Part shown: positions 44,688-52,898 of the stretch, in pieces
How positions within the stretch are numbered: position 1 is the stretch's first letter
Layout: the number at the start of each line of letters is the position of its first letter
Assembly: GCA_018698135.1 (NCBI GenBank)
Contig: JABINZ010000098.1
Coordinates: forward strand, 1-52,898
Length of the DNA stretch: 52,898 nucleotides
Source: Bacteroidota bacterium
Lineage (GTDB): Bacteria > Bacteroidota > Bacteroidia > CAILMK01 > JAAYUY01
Direction of reading: 5' to 3'
Notes under the pieces: generated by a model
The model's input: the letters and a program-made list of their open reading frames with translations, nothing else
Database searches by the model: none
What the model was told of the DNA's origin: nothing
Program-made: the position numbers and the translations under genes

Positions 44688-47471
44688 TCATTGAATAAGC
44701 ACAGTTTGATAGCTTAGAACGCCTGCATCTTCAATTCGAATCAGGTAAATTCCACTACTAAGTTTGGCGAAATTAAACTCTTTAAAGAAGTTCGAGTTAT
44801 TGACCTCACAATTCTCAGTATAAATCTGCTGTCCTTTTAAATCCACTATTTGGATGGAAATATCTCTGATTTCAGCTGATTTAGTATGATAGGAAAGACT
44901 AAATTTTCCATTTGATGGATTGGGGTAAACCTGAATAGCTGCATTTGTTTTTTGTTCCTTTATTCCAATACTGTAAACGGATAAATCTATTACTATGCTA
45001 TCTGTAAAACAGGAGTTGATGGCAAATAACTTTACTTCATAATTCCCGCCTGTTGGGAAACTATGTGATGGATTTTCACTGTTTGAAAAGTTTCCATCTC
45101 CAAAATCCCAATAGAAAGAATCTGCATTAATACTGGTGTTTTGAAACTGCACATCCAGGAAGTTAATATGCTTACTAAAGGATGCAGTAACCCAAGCTTC
45201 ACTCGAATCACAAAGCACAAAATCCCATATTCCCCGTCCGTAAGTTCCAAATCTCACTGTATTGATAGCCGGAATATAGTCGACTGACCAATAGTTTTGA
45301 TCAGGAGCTATTCCTTCAGCTAAATCATACCATGTATTCGTTTCCAAGGCAAAAACAAAAGGTCCGACTTCAGTAGCTGCAAAAAGATATTTTTCTTCTT
45401 TATCCGTAACAATTTTATAAAATAAGGTAGATGGAAGGTTAGAATCAAGAGCTGTGAAAGTTTTTCCATAATCGTGTGACACATAAACCCCAGGATTAGA
45501 ATAACCGCTTCCAGCAATATAAACAGTTGCAGTATCTTTAGTTGAAGCCAAGATATCTGCTCCATAAAAATAATGTGCACCAAAATCAGGTGTAAATGAT
45601 TGAAGTGTCCAGTTTATGCCAGCATCAGTCGACAGGTAAAAATCACCCTTACTGCTTACAACATAACGAATATCTGTATTCAAGGGCGAATATTCCATTG
45701 CTGAAATTTTCGAATTGTTACGGCTAAAATTAAAGCTTCCTTCTATAGCACTAACAGAAACACCATTGTAACTCAAATGAAATATGTGAGATCCTGAACC
45801 TGAGCTACCACCTGCTAAATATACTTTTGTAGGATCATTGGTATCTTCTAAAAGTGGAGGAATCCAGAAATTGCCTGACATGGCAAAATCCCAACGTTTA
45901 CTACTGGTGCTCAAATTAATATTGGGATAATAAATGGCAAATCCCGGGTAGACCATCCATATGCTGGATCCTAAATCTCCTGATACAATATGTCCATAAT
46001 CGCCACTGATGATTTGTTTGAATGAAAGTATATTACCTGGATCCAGACTTCGCTGATAACCCTGATCCTGACTTCCAGCATGTACTACATTGGGATCAAA
46101 GCGGCATGTATAGGTAGAGTAATATTGACTGACATTATGATTTAGCAAAGAAAGGTTCTTAACGCTTTTCAGCGAATCATTTGAAACATATAAACCGCCA
46201 TCGGTGCTTATAAACACTTTTTCTTTATCGAGTATAACGAAAGAGTTAATGCCGGGAATGTCGGCATGCAAAAGATTTTCAGGATCTCCATAATATTGAG
46301 ACCACAGATTAACTTGTGTCCAGCCAGCACCTCCATTGTAACTGCGGTAACAATTTACACCTCCGAAATATAAATTATTCGGGTTGGTGCTTGAACAACA
46401 AAAACTACTTCTTCTAAATGGACTTTCAGATACATCTGATTGGTAGGTCCATACAGAACCTCCATCAGCGGATTTGTAAATAGCGGTTCCACTTGATTGT
46501 TTGACAGCGATATATAATACAGTAGCTGATGCATCTTGATAGCCGCATAAGTAAACATTGCCATTTTCATTATAGCTTGCACTTCCAACAGTTGATAACT
46601 GATTATCTGCTTGAATTATATTGATTTCATTATTAATGAGCAAGTATGGATTGGAGGAATTATAGTAGTTGCACCACAAATCAAATTTGGAAACACTTCC
46701 ATAAGTTGCAGATGAAAAACTTAATATTTGGGTGAAACTATCACCACTGCTTGTTGATTTGTAAATGGATGTGATTGCTTCCCAGTTTGTTGCATCCCAC
46801 TCCTGAGCAAGTAAATAAATGTGGTTCGGTTTTTCTGAAGGAATGACCATGCGGTGGATATTTCCCCAATTTGCAATGTTTGCCAGACCATTTGCCATTT
46901 GCCAGTTTTTCCCATCATTATCGGTATAATAAACTCCTTCGATACCAAATTTACCGGAAGAAACCAATATTCTACGGTTATTATTCACATACAAAACCCT
47001 GACAGAAATAATATCTGGAATTTTGAATTGATCATTGATATTTTTCCAATTACTACCATCCAAATTTCCTATCCAAATGTTACCCCCGGATGAAGCTGAA
47101 ATAATTTCATTTGTGAAAGTGTCGTATTCAGCTAAATGAATTCGTCCTGATTGATTTTTACTGCCTTTCTCAAACCACGATCCTTTTACCAAACCATCAG
47201 CCAGACTAATCGAATTTGATGATCTTCTAAAGGAGGATGCATAATGTCTACTTCGATTTAATCTATAATTAATATCTTGCATTTGCCAGTTCAAACCTGC
47301 TTCTGCCCGATGCATTTCATCAAACCAGCTTAAGCGATCTTTGTAATTTCCTTCTTTTTCCTCGACAATTTCAGTGGGAGTGGGTACTTCTTGTTTATCT
47401 GTGTAGATGTAAATACACAAATAGCCGACTAGAAAGAGTGTGAAAATACCGCTGAAAATCCAATTTCTCAT
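44688..47471 (-). CDS. Secreted BNR/VPS10-like propeller protein with PKD and T9SS type A domains
   Basis: About 927 residues from ATG at 47471; the longer frame adds 17 residues before a better signal segment (WIFSGIFTLFLVGYLCIYIY). The main body has many BNR/Asp-box-like strands (YYTDNDGKNWQ, YKSADGGSVWTYQS, ISTDGGLYVS, LSTDAGINWT, VSHDYGKTF), as in sialidases and VPS10 propellers. A PKD domain follows (FYWDFGDGNFSNSENPSHSF) and then the type A sorting domain (VYPNPSNGKFSLSY, SSGIYLIRIED, VLIQ). It should be exported by the T9SS; the enzymatic role is not shown. It is divergent from the next T9SS gene at 47745. Confidence 0.85.
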   Translation of the reverse strand: MRNWIFSGIFTLFLVGYLCIYIYTDKQEVPTPTEIVEEKEGNYKDRLSWFDEMHRAEAGLNWQMQDINYRLNRSRHYASSFRRSSNSISLADGLVKGSWFEKGSKNQSGRIHLAEYDTFTNEIISASSGGNIWIGNLDGSNWKNINDQFKIPDIISVRVLYVNNNRRILVSSGKFGIEGVYYTDNDGKNWQMANGLANIANWGNIHRMVIPSEKPNHIYLLAQEWDATNWEAITSIYKSTSSGDSFTQILSFSSATYGSVSKFDLWCNYYNSSNPYLLINNEINIIQADNQLSTVGSASYNENGNVYLCGYQDASATVLYIAVKQSSGTAIYKSADGGSVWTYQSDVSESPFRRSSFCCSSTNPNNLYFGGVNCYRSYNGGAGWTQVNLWSQYYGDPENLLHADIPGINSFVILDKEKVFISTDGGLYVSNDSLKSVKNLSLLNHNVSQYYSTYTCRFDPNVVHAGSQDQGYQRSLDPGNILSFKQIISGDYGHIVSGDLGSSIWMVYPGFAIYYPNINLSTSSKRWDFAMSGNFWIPPLLEDTNDPTKVYLAGGSSGSGSHIFHLSYNGVSVSAIEGSFNFSRNNSKISAMEYSPLNTDIRYVVSSKGDFYLSTDAGINWTLQSFTPDFGAHYFYGADILASTKDTATVYIAGSGYSNPGVYVSHDYGKTFTALDSNLPSTLFYKIVTDKEEKYLFAATEVGPFVFALETNTWYDLAEGIAPDQNYWSVDYIPAINTVRFGTYGRGIWDFVLCDSSEAWVTASFSKHINFLDVQFQNTSINADSFYWDFGDGNFSNSENPSHSFPTGGNYEVKLFAINSCFTDSIVIDLSVYSIGIKEQKTNAAIQVYPNPSNGKFSLSYHTKSAEIRDISIQIVDLKGQQIYTENCEVNNSNFFKEFNFAKLSSGIYLIRIEDAGVLSYQTVLIQ

Positions 47472-47744
47472 GTTAAACTGTTTTATAATTGAATACAATA
47501 TACGGGCGAAATCATAAACCATATGGCGTCTATTTGAATTTATTATGACTATTTCATTTATATAATTGACACTGCAATTCTCATGGATGGATTTTTAATA
47601 ATGAATTAATTTGTAAGGTTATAAATCCTCCATCGTCTAAGAGGGAAAATAGGATATGAAACGAACATGAGTGAAATATTCCTCACATAAAGGGATGATT
47701 ATCATGTGAGTTCCATCTGACCTTAAAAAAACAATTATAAACAG

Positions 47745-48728
47745 ATGAAAAAGACAGTATATCTAATTTTGCTTGCACTCATGAGTATGCGTTTGCATGC
47801 TCAAACAAATCAAAGATCAATTGTAGAGCATTTTACCAATAGCTGGTGTAGTGTATGTGCCAGTAAAAACCCAGCCTTATATTCACTTCTTGATCAACAT
47901 CAGGATGTGATACACATTGCTTATCATCCGAGCAGACCTTATCCTGGATGCATTTTTTCGATGCATAATATGGCTGAAAATGATGCAAGAACAAACTTTT
48001 ATGGCATTTATGGAAGCACGCCAAGAGTTGTTGTCAATGGTAGTGTCATCCCAATTCAAAGTCCTACAATAAAACCAACTGACTTGGATGCACACTTGGG
48101 TCTTTATTCGGCATTTCGCATCAATGTGATGCAGGAAAGAGATGGCATAGATTCAATTAATGTTAAAACCACTATTTCTAAAATTGATACCAATCCTTCA
48201 AATATGTTGGATTTATATGTACAATTGGCTGAAAAGAAAATCAATTATGCATCTCCAAATGGAGAAAGTGTTCATCATGATGTTTTTAGAGCTTCACTTT
48301 ACTTCGGTAGTATTTCATTAATGAACATGGGTGATTCGCTAACTATTAACAGAAAATATGCTTATCACCCCGACTGGGAAAAGGATGAAATGATAGCAAT
48401 TTCCTTCATTCAGGATCAGGCAACAAAAGTTATTTTACAAGCTGAAGAGTCAAATTTATTAGAGGATCTGCCAGCAACTATTTTTGAAAATGAAGAGAAT
48501 GATTTTATGCTTGTATATCCCAATCCTGCCAGTCATTTCATTTATTTAAAGCCAGAATTATTGAATGGTTATGAAAATATAGCATTTATAAATACACAGG
48601 GTGAGATTGTTTTAAATAGTCAAGTAAACGATCGCCTTAATATCGAAACATTATCAAGGGGTGTTTATATTTTGAAATTGAGTGGTGAACTGAATAAACC
48701 CATTTATACCAAATTTATTAAGCAATAG
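47745..48728 (+). CDS. Omp28-like thioredoxin-fold protein with T9SS type A domain
   Basis: A signal peptide (1 to about 19, ending LHAQ) precedes a thioredoxin-like domain with the redox-type motif WCSVC (about 34-38) and YGIYGSTPRVVVNG, which carries the cis-Pro region. This matches Omp28-related surface proteins of Bacteroidota. The last 75 residues form the type A sorting domain (VYPNPASHFIYLKP, GVYILKLSG). The protein should reach the cell surface by the T9SS; the disulfide-active site suggests a redox or folding role outside the cell (inference). It is followed after 89 bases by the lpxD-type gene. Confidence 0.85.
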   Translation: MKKTVYLILLALMSMRLHAQTNQRSIVEHFTNSWCSVCASKNPALYSLLDQHQDVIHIAYHPSRPYPGCIFSMHNMAENDARTNFYGIYGSTPRVVVNGSVIPIQSPTIKPTDLDAHLGLYSAFRINVMQERDGIDSINVKTTISKIDTNPSNMLDLYVQLAEKKINYASPNGESVHHDVFRASLYFGSISLMNMGDSLTINRKYAYHPDWEKDEMIAISFIQDQATKVILQAEESNLLEDLPATIFENEENDFMLVYPNPASHFIYLKPELLNGYENIAFINTQGEIVLNSQVNDRLNIETLSRGVYILKLSGELNKPIYTKFIKQ

Positions 48729-49834: not shown

Positions 49835-50209
49835 ATGATTCTAAAAAAAATTGCATACATAACATTAGCCTTATTGATTCTCGTAATCACCACTGGTTTT
49901 ACTATCGACCTGCACTATTGTCATGGTGAAGTTGTAGACGTTTCTATGAATTGGAATGCTAATTCATATAGTGGTGAAAAGAAAGCGTGTTGTAGTGATG
50001 CTATTCTTTACCTGAAATTTGATCATGATTTCCTTAAAACTATTGTCGATTTCAAGCAAGTTATAAATAATCCTACTCTTCATAAGCCTGATTATCTGAT
50101 ATTTGAAGAGTATCAAGGATACATTAATTCTTCATTTATAAAGAATAATAACAAGTTAGCACTAGTTAAGCAGGATAAATGTGTCATAAATCAGGTATTT
50201 CTAATTTGA
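49835..50209 (+). CDS. HYC_CC-type cysteine-motif exported protein
   Basis: A 124-residue protein with an N-terminal membrane or signal segment (about 5-23), then DLHYCHGEVVD (HYC at 27-29) and KKACCSDAIL (CC at about 52-53). The C-terminal QVFLI matches the end of the Bacteroidota HYC_CC_PP family. The Pro-Pro that gives the family its third name is missing here (NNNKLALVKQDK in its place). Such proteins occur beside TonB receptors with a CC plug motif, as here, and a role in thiophilic metal handling is inferred. A 53-residue peptide gene and the receptor gene follow on the same strand. Confidence 0.75.
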   Translation: MILKKIAYITLALLILVITTGFTIDLHYCHGEVVDVSMNWNANSYSGEKKACCSDAILYLKFDHDFLKTIVDFKQVINNPTLHKPDYLIFEEYQGYINSSFIKNNNKLALVKQDKCVINQVFLI

Positions 50210-50284
50210 AAAGATAAGCTTCTTGCCTATTTAGCATAGATGCTTTAGGTAATTCAGATCTTTATTCACAACAAAAAAAATTGA

Positions 50285-50446
50285 ATGTTAGTAAAATTAA
50301 TACTTGTTTCCATAGTTTTGGTGGCTATTGTGATGGCTGCTATGGGAATAAGATTGCTTCTTGACAAAAATGCTGAGATGAAGCATTCCTGTGGAGGTGC
50401 AGATTGTGGATGTGATACTGATCGAAACAAATCTTGTAATCATTAG
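50285..50446 (+). CDS. 53-residue cysteine-rich membrane peptide
   Basis: ATG at 50285 opens a short frame ending in TAG at 50444-50446. The protein has one membrane helix (about 4-26: KLILVSIVLVAIVMAAMGIR) and then a soluble tail with HSCGGADCGCD and KSCNH, four cysteines in 20 residues plus two histidines. Small one-helix Cys-tail proteins of this kind occur in Bacteroidota metal loci. The gene sits 75 bases after the HYC_CC gene and 14 bases before the TonB receptor gene, with the codon use of its neighbours, which favours a real gene. The function is unknown; metal delivery at the inner membrane is a guess. Confidence 0.65.
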   Translation: MLVKLILVSIVLVAIVMAAMGIRLLLDKNAEMKHSCGGADCGCDTDRNKSCNH

Positions 50447-50460
50447 ATAATTATGTATTA

Positions 50461-52734
50461 ATGAAACAAATATTACTACTTATAATAATAAGCTTTATAG
50501 CCCATGACTTAGCAGCTCAGAATCCTTCAAAATCAGAAGAATATCTGAAAGGTTATGTCTATGGTGAATTGGAAGGGAAAAAAGAAGCTCTGGTTGGCGC
50601 TAGTGTCTATTGGATGGGAACAAACAAAGGAACTGCTACCACAAACAATGGAGCATTTTCGATTCGATTTTTAGAGAATAAAACAACGACATTAGTTGTC
50701 AGTTTTATAGGCTATCAATCTGATACTTTAAAGATTAAGAATGGACAAAACAATTTGGAAATTGTTCTAAAAGCGATCATTAATCTGGATGAATATGAAG
50801 TAAAAGAAAAACGAGGAAGTTCATTTTATGCCAATACAAATCCAATAGCAACTCAAATAATTACCAGTTCCGAGCTGACCAAAGCTGCTTGCTGCAATTT
50901 GGCTGAAAGTTTTGAGACAAATGCTTCTGTGGATGTAAGTTATTCAGATGCAGTAACCGGTGCCAAGCAAATTCAACTGTTGGGTTTGTCGGGTGTTTAC
51001 ACACAAATGCAGTTTGAGAATATTCCTGAAATGCGCGGTATTGCTGGAGTTTATGGATTAACTTTTGTACCTGGACCTTGGTTGTCATCAATATCCATTA
51101 GCAAGGGAACAGCATCTGTTCGAAATGGTTTTGAATCAATAACTGGGCAGATTAATTATGAATATAAAAAACCAGATACGGCAGAACGCTTTTATTTAAA
51201 CTTATTTGGAAATAATTTTAAACGTGTAGAAGGTAATTTATATTCTGCCTGGAAACTGAATAAGAAATGGAGTACGATGGTATTCGTCCATGCCAATGAA
51301 TTTCAAAATAAGATTGATCTTAATGGAGATGGTTTCTTAGACATTCCAACTTCCAGACAATATAATGTGTTCAACCGCTGGAAATACAAAAGTGAAAAAT
51401 TAATGACACAATTTGGTGTTAATTACATCAGCGAACAAAAGGGTGGAGGTCAGCTTGGATTTAATGAATCAACTGATTTGGGAACACGAAATGCATACGG
51501 AATTGGAATCGATACCCGTAGGCTAAGTGCTTTTTGGAAAGCTGGTCATGTGTCAAAAAAGAAAGCAAATACCAGTTTGGCAATGATTCATTCATTTCAG
51601 TTGCATGAGCAAAACTCCTATTATGGTTTAAATAATTTTGATGCCAAGCAAAGTAGTTGGTATAGCAATTTTCTGTATCAATCCTACATTGGAAGCAGTG
51701 TTCATAATTATACCCTTGGTGCTTCTGTTGTTTATGATAATTATGATCAGAAATTGACTCAGGATACACTCAATCCTCAGGTCTTCCAACGCGAGGATAT
51801 TATTCCGGGTGTTTTTCTGGAATATACTTTTAAGCCAAATGATAAATTCGCATTAATAGCAGGTATAAGAGATGATTATCATAATCATTTTGGCAATATT
51901 TTCACACCCAGATTGCATGTTCGTTATAAATTAAATGAAAATACAACAATTCGGGCATCTGGAGGAAAGGGCTATCGTTTTCCAAGTATTTTAACTGAAA
52001 ACACGGGTTTGCTATTAACCAATAAGCAAATTATTTTTGAGGATGAACAAACCATGGAGGAAGCATGGAATTATGGTTTATTTCTCTCCAGAGATTTAAT
52101 GGTTTTTGGTCGTAAAGCTTTATTGAATATTGATTTCTATCGTACCAATTTTATCAGGCAAATGATAGTAGATATGGATGTTTGTGGCGAATTGATCCAT
52201 ATTTATGAGTTGAATGGCATGTTAAACTTTTACGATGGTAAATCCTATGCCAATAGCGCACAGGCAGAGTTTTCATTTGAACCACTTGAAGGATTGGATG
52301 TGCTTGTGGCTTATCGTTTCAATGATGTTAAAACAACTTATTTAGGAGAGTTAAAAGATAAGTTGATGAGTAAAAAGTCAAAAGCATTATTGAGTTTATC
52401 TTATTCCACTAAATGGGAAAAATGGCAATTCGATTACACCTTACAATACAACGATAAAAGTAGATTACCCATAAAGATAATTTTTACGGATACTGCTGAA
52501 ATAATCATGCCTCAGGAATACAGTCCTTCATTTTTTATTATGAATGGGCAAGTAACCAGACGATTCAAGAGTTGGGAAGTTTACTTGGGAGTTGAAAATG
52601 CGACCAATTTTACGCAAGCAGAACCTATTGAGTTTTATGACGAACCTTTTAGTTTGAATTTTGATGCCACCCGAACATGGGGTCCAGTAATTGGCCGTAA
52701 GATATATTTAGGTATAAAAATGAAATTATTTTAG
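50461..52734 (+). CDS. TonB-dependent outer-membrane receptor, candidate metal transporter
   Basis: A signal peptide (1 to about 19, ending LAAQ) is followed by a carboxypeptidase-D-like domain (about 28-105: GASVYWMGTNKGTATTNNG), a plug (about 120-235) and a 22-strand-type barrel to the C-terminal Phe. The plug holds KAACCNLAESFETN (about 140-153) and the conserved TGAKQIQLLGLSGVYTQM and ISISKGTASVRNGFESITGQI. At 757 residues it fits the copper/heavy-metal-linked group of Bacteroidota receptors. The paired cysteines, with the two cysteine-rich genes just upstream, suggest Cu or another soft metal; siderophore or other substrates remain possible. The next gene is beyond the window. Confidence 0.88.
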   Translation: MKQILLLIIISFIAHDLAAQNPSKSEEYLKGYVYGELEGKKEALVGASVYWMGTNKGTATTNNGAFSIRFLENKTTTLVVSFIGYQSDTLKIKNGQNNLEIVLKAIINLDEYEVKEKRGSSFYANTNPIATQIITSSELTKAACCNLAESFETNASVDVSYSDAVTGAKQIQLLGLSGVYTQMQFENIPEMRGIAGVYGLTFVPGPWLSSISISKGTASVRNGFESITGQINYEYKKPDTAERFYLNLFGNNFKRVEGNLYSAWKLNKKWSTMVFVHANEFQNKIDLNGDGFLDIPTSRQYNVFNRWKYKSEKLMTQFGVNYISEQKGGGQLGFNESTDLGTRNAYGIGIDTRRLSAFWKAGHVSKKKANTSLAMIHSFQLHEQNSYYGLNNFDAKQSSWYSNFLYQSYIGSSVHNYTLGASVVYDNYDQKLTQDTLNPQVFQREDIIPGVFLEYTFKPNDKFALIAGIRDDYHNHFGNIFTPRLHVRYKLNENTTIRASGGKGYRFPSILTENTGLLLTNKQIIFEDEQTMEEAWNYGLFLSRDLMVFGRKALLNIDFYRTNFIRQMIVDMDVCGELIHIYELNGMLNFYDGKSYANSAQAEFSFEPLEGLDVLVAYRFNDVKTTYLGELKDKLMSKKSKALLSLSYSTKWEKWQFDYTLQYNDKSRLPIKIIFTDTAEIIMPQEYSPSFFIMNGQVTRRFKSWEVYLGVENATNFTQAEPIEFYDEPFSLNFDATRTWGPVIGRKIYLGIKMKLF

Positions 52735-52787
52735 TATTATTGAACCTTAATAAATATTGAAGTTGTTCAAAGTCGAATGTTGATAAA

Positions 52788-52827
52788 ACACCAATGATAC
52801 CAAAATAAAGATTAATATCATTGGTGT
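52788..52827. repeat. 12-bp perfect hairpin downstream of the TonB receptor
   Basis: ACACCAATGATA (52788-52799) pairs with TATCATTGGTGT (52816-52827). On the plus strand an A-run, not a T-run, follows, so it is not a standard terminator for the receptor; on the minus strand TTTT follows, so it may end a gene coming from the right. Confidence 0.5.
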
Positions 52828-52898
52828 AAAAAAATATATGTTAAGTAAAGGTATAATAAAAAAGAGATCTGTCCAAGACTGAACTTTGGAAATTCACA

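Follow-up and report, generated by a model that had tools for sequence, protein, structure and literature searches.

A candidate copper-import cassette with a genus-specific small peptide gene in a Bacteroidota genome

Results

Gene content of the locus

The window, i.e., the whole stretch of DNA analysed (52,898 nucleotides), is the complete contig C98 of the genome and carries three neighbouring genes on the plus strand near its end, each rich in cysteines. The first gene (49835-50209) encodes a small protein of 124 amino acids that matches the HYC_CC_PP family (NF047658), the second (50285-50446) a peptide of 53 amino acids with a single hydrophobic segment and a cysteine cluster, and the third (50461-52734) a TonB-dependent receptor of 757 amino acids. 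The intergenic gaps are small, at 75 bp between the first gene and the peptide and 14 bp between the peptide and the receptor, and rechecking of coordinates and motifs confirmed this arrangement as it had been described in the original prediction. The contig ends 164 bp after the receptor, and this remainder includes the probable end of an insertion element (52758-52898, no strand assigned) with the terminal repeat TGAAGTTGTTCAAAGT. Two genes for proteins with type IX secretion tails lie near the locus, one of the Sortilin-Vps10/PKD type (44688-47522) and one thioredoxin/Omp28-like (47745-48728); in the sister genome G001, the locus is flanked by similar genes in the same order.

The first protein scored 55.1 bits against NF047658 (curated cut-off 28) and contains both family motifs, H-Y-C at residues 27-29 and CC at residues 52-53, and its gene, as is typical of the family, stands before a metal-type membrane gene. 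Despite the family name, however, the PP motif near the C-terminus is absent from the window copy. In the family this motif is not terminal, lying 9-27 residues before the C-terminus, and its distance from the CC motif is nearly constant (median 54, IQR 53-55.5), as is that from CC to the C-terminus (73, IQR 71-76), whereas the distance from HxC to CC is more variable (IQR 27-46). Family members frequently end in FLI or FRI; the window protein ends in ...VFLI, 71 residues after its CC, and so keeps the FLI end. An AlphaFold2 model, which is shallow and of low confidence (30 sequences, pTM 0.41), has an ordered N-terminal core at residues 1-60 (block pLDDT 69-95) that contains both HYC and CC, and a low-confidence C-terminal half (48-65). 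Searches with this protein returned no Pfam match up to an E-value of 1, DUF2946 included, and no related solved structure, and there was no strict match to the consensus Bacteroidota promoter near the gene. No published function for NF047658 was found in the literature searched. At other loci, HYC_CC_PP genes precede RND efflux genes (PF00873) and MbnP genes (PF20243), the latter followed in one case by a di-haem CCP_MauG-type gene. The genome of the window holds a second HYC_CC_PP copy (C227:230-2500, L055), upstream of an RND efflux pump gene.

The receptor was assigned as TonB-dependent on its Pfam domains, namely an N-terminal CarboxypepD_reg-like domain (PF13715), a plug (PF07715) and a barrel (PF00593). 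Its plug carries the motif AACCNLAESFETN with AACC at residues 142-145, and C144, C145 and H277 are invariant among 49 receptors. In a Foldseek search the receptor model matched BtuB3G3 (E 1.6e-24), its nearest folds being generic TonB-dependent transporters (BtuB, siderophore receptors), and no solved structure was a close sequence match. The copper site of OprC, CxxxM-HxM (PMC8610252), is absent, as C144-C145 is followed by NLAESF and lacks a methionine at +4. Around the CC the pLDDT of the plug falls below 50, so a metal site cannot be placed in the model, and a placement of CC and H277 was dropped as uninterpretable.

Conservation of the receptor cassette

A ten-receptor alignment, run against genome contigs, gave 80 receptor loci (41-47% identity). 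Scan loci with enough upstream sequence, together with those of related genomes, formed a set of 72, which was examined with a purpose-built profile of the HYC-like gene. This gene lies directly upstream and on the same strand at 47 of the 72 CC-plug receptor loci, with only three profile matches elsewhere, and the co-occurrence of HYC_CC_PP proteins with such receptors, stated in the original prediction, therefore holds as a conserved pair. As just 37 of 67 upstream proteins matched NF047658 at an E-value of 0.01, these counts probably underestimate a fast-evolving family.

A heavy-metal domain gene, which the prediction had advised looking for downstream, does stand beside most receptors: the HMA domain (PF00403) was found in 49 of the 63 small proteins neighbouring them, and in G001, G002 and G003 an HMA gene begins within about 30 bp after the receptor. 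The gene order is leader, receptor, HMA and oxidoreductase in G002 and G003, and HMA, peptide, receptor, HMA and oxidoreductase in G001, the oxidoreductase genes being TPP-dependent and resembling indolepyruvate:ferredoxin oxidoreductase. The G001 locus is without an HYC_CC gene and an HMA gene occupies that slot, which indicates that neither HYC_CC_PP nor the peptide is obligatory in the cassette.

The 53-residue peptide

The four cysteines of the peptide (C36, C41, C43 and C51) are spaced C-x4-C-x-C-x7-C, not C-x5-C-x-C as first read, and the terminal Cys-Asn-His is as described. An orthologue with 57% identity lies directly before the receptor in G001, the one further genome of this genus that was searched. 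For this pair dN/dS is about 0.17 (NG86; dS about 2.1, saturated), and nucleotide changes by codon position (19/10/30) are concentrated at third positions; with its conserved copy and these substitutions, the peptide is a real gene under purifying selection. Of the 76 related CC-plug loci that were scanned, however, 75 lack it, and no orthologue was found outside the genus, the rest of the order included. The original prediction had suggested that the peptide could be a missing component, and had named a lack of conservation beside such receptors as a reason to give up the relay; as far as the peptide goes, this is what the scan shows, and a general role for it is not supported.

Against the FeoB-associated family PF12669 the peptide scored 23.6 bits, under the cut-off of 27, and its cysteine spacing departs from the FeoB-associated motif Cx3-5Cx2-3Cx6-8C (PMC8749426). 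Its neighbours are an HYC_CC_PP or HMA gene and the TonB receptor, not feoB, and the window has no apbE gene beside it. The profile built from both peptides of the genus retrieved small membrane proteins that often adjoin ApbE genes (E 2e-5 and weaker), with aligned cysteine columns and 29-39% identity to the ApbE-type members. The peptide shares with these and with FeoB-associated proteins a single hydrophobic segment at the N-terminus and, behind it, a cysteine cluster, but it adjoins neither FeoB nor ApbE and lacks the middle loop of the ApbE-adjacent proteins. The same genome also holds a full-length, separate copy of the peptide's family beside an ApbE-like gene. Given this homology and the full-length copy, the peptide is best interpreted as a shortened and relocated paralogue of an ApbE-adjacent small cysteine membrane protein. 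A known small membrane protein of this setting is NqrM, which is co-transcribed with ApbE in Vibrio and acts in iron-sulphur maturation (PMC12174285). A reading of the peptide as a RiPP precursor was rejected (TIGR04149, 13.1 bits; cut-off 25).

The contig end

An orthologue of the HMA gene is found in the same genome at the end of another contig (C273:5548-5922), next to the same oxidoreductase genes as in the sister genomes. What lies between this gene and the end of the contig looks like the last part of a transposase-like frame, and its terminal repeat recurs, inverted, at position 52758 of the window, just past the receptor. The simplest reading is that an insertion element separates the receptor from its HMA gene and broke the assembly, so that the two contigs, C98 and C273, would join here. 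Contig C123, which starts with a truncated HMA gene, was considered as the continuation and rejected, since it has no overlap and lacks the expected neighbours, while C273 fits. C123 holds a second HMA locus (C123:1-1993, L089), where a truncated and a complete HMA gene lie close to a gene for cation efflux (CDF); of the two, the complete one resembles the HMA gene preceding the peptide in G001.

Discussion

The locus is most likely a member of a widespread Bacteroidota candidate copper-import cassette to which a genus-specific small gene has been added. Gene content, conservation and synteny, as well as the orthology of the peptide and the selection on it, are direct observations. The explanation that we find probable for the whole is a copper-acquisition cassette of receptor, HYC_CC protein and HMA protein, with the peptide as an accessory and with a later insertion element. 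Of the interpretation originally proposed for the three genes, the pairing of HYC_CC_PP protein and receptor, the HMA partner and the copper neighbourhood are supported, and the peptide as a general component is not. In its strict form, an obligate relay of a thiophilic metal through all three proteins with the peptide as the inner-membrane step, the idea can draw on the close linkage of the peptide gene to the receptor gene, seen in each of the two genomes of the genus, and on the purifying selection, but it is highly improbable in view of the many CC-plug loci without a peptide, its restriction to one genus and the missing HYC_CC gene in G001, the only other genome that bears it. A relay requiring the peptide is therefore not supported.

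Which metal the cassette serves is suggested by the company that its genes keep. MbnP is known from methanobactin, i.e., copper-chelate, loci. Because HYC_CC_PP genes stand before MbnP and RND efflux genes at other loci, the likeliest metal is copper, to which the HMA proteins point as well, and on these sequence neighbourhoods we would hold it to be the metal of the cassette with reasonable but far from full confidence. The two heme-copper oxidase genes of the genome are a plausible copper sink. Against copper counts that neither HMA domains nor RND pumps are exclusive to it, and, with the receptor fold generic, copper stays something that we infer. The receptor resembles OprC, CrtA/BfrG and MbnT in being TonB-dependent and in its apparent copper gene neighbourhood, and shares a plug cysteine with OprC; it differs from OprC in having a CC plug motif in place of CxxxM-HxM, and from all of them in its partner genes. 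The same generic fold, with BtuB and siderophore receptors as best structural matches, and the likeness of the peptide to the iron-linked NqrM and FeoB-associated proteins would suit a substrate other than copper, such as a cobalamin-like chelate or an iron or zinc complex, with the cysteine proteins serving in the defence against metal stress or in its detection. We regard this as unlikely, because HMA genes adjoin most receptors and HYC_CC_PP genes adjoin MbnP and RND genes.

A different role for the first gene has to be weighed. In Bordetella, a copper receptor operon begins with CruR, whose CXXC motif senses copper and keeps a constant distance to an arrest motif (PMC9426467); the translation arrest of CruR was confirmed in vitro (PMC12992588). 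The HYC_CC protein is likewise a small exported cysteine protein encoded by the first gene before a TonB-dependent receptor, and its family likewise keeps a fixed distance from cysteine motif to proline motif. HYC_CC_PP could then be a copper-sensing leader, in which HxC and CC of the nascent chain sense copper and a tail of fixed length controls the downstream copper genes. The first-gene position before varied copper-type genes, the near-constant spacing behind CC beside the looser HxC-to-CC distance, the recurrent FLI or FRI end and the ordered core with its low-confidence tail are all consistent with this. Furthermore, the slot before the orthologous receptor in G003 is taken by a DUF6769-like open reading frame, below the cut-off of that family, which ends in LRAPPIVLV, a CruR-type arrest motif. 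Together, the fixed spacing, the precedent of CruR and the G003 frame make leader function a serious rival. However, CruR belongs to another family (DUF2946), which the window protein does not match, and has CXXC and a C-terminal RAPP where the window protein has HYC and CC, with neither RAPP nor PP; the PP of the family is itself remote from the C-terminus, constant spacing is equally expected from a folded domain, and the structure model is shallow. We therefore consider the leader possible but doubtful.

The broader proposal, that HYC_CC_PP is a sequence-unrelated Bacteroidota counterpart of CruR that gates uptake receptor, MbnP and efflux operons and is interchangeable with DUF6769-type RAPP leaders, would be tentative at best. 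The DUF6769-type frames themselves look like CruR-type RAPP arrest leaders in Bacteroidota, a phylum for which PMC12992588 lists no arrest leader of the copper class. Frames of DUF6769 (PF20558) and similar small, histidine-rich ones, ending in RAPP plus 3-5 residues, were also seen at L047:6173-6565 (minus strand) and at L204-L207, where they stand immediately before a metal-type efflux adaptor-like gene or a TonB receptor-like one. A PF20558 search was tried as a test for RAPP leaders and set aside, because few genomes of the class have the family (6 of 119). If the leader reading were true, post-transcriptional copper sensing by a nascent chain would extend to a further phylum, by means of a protein family unrelated in sequence.

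To return to the cassette as a copper importer, we infer its direction of transport and the role of each protein as follows. The CC-plug receptor would take in copper through the outer membrane, either as the free metal or as a chelate, and the upstream HYC_CC protein and the normally downstream HMA protein would handle Cu(I) through periplasmic cysteine and histidine sites. The shortened paralogue of the ApbE-adjacent proteins, specific to the genus and encoded directly before the receptor, would be an accessory, and an insertion element would later have parted the receptor and HMA genes in this genome. Copper uptake in Bacteroidota is poorly known, and it becomes directly testable with this receptor family, whose plug CC is invariant and which usually occurs together with HYC_CC_PP and HMA proteins.
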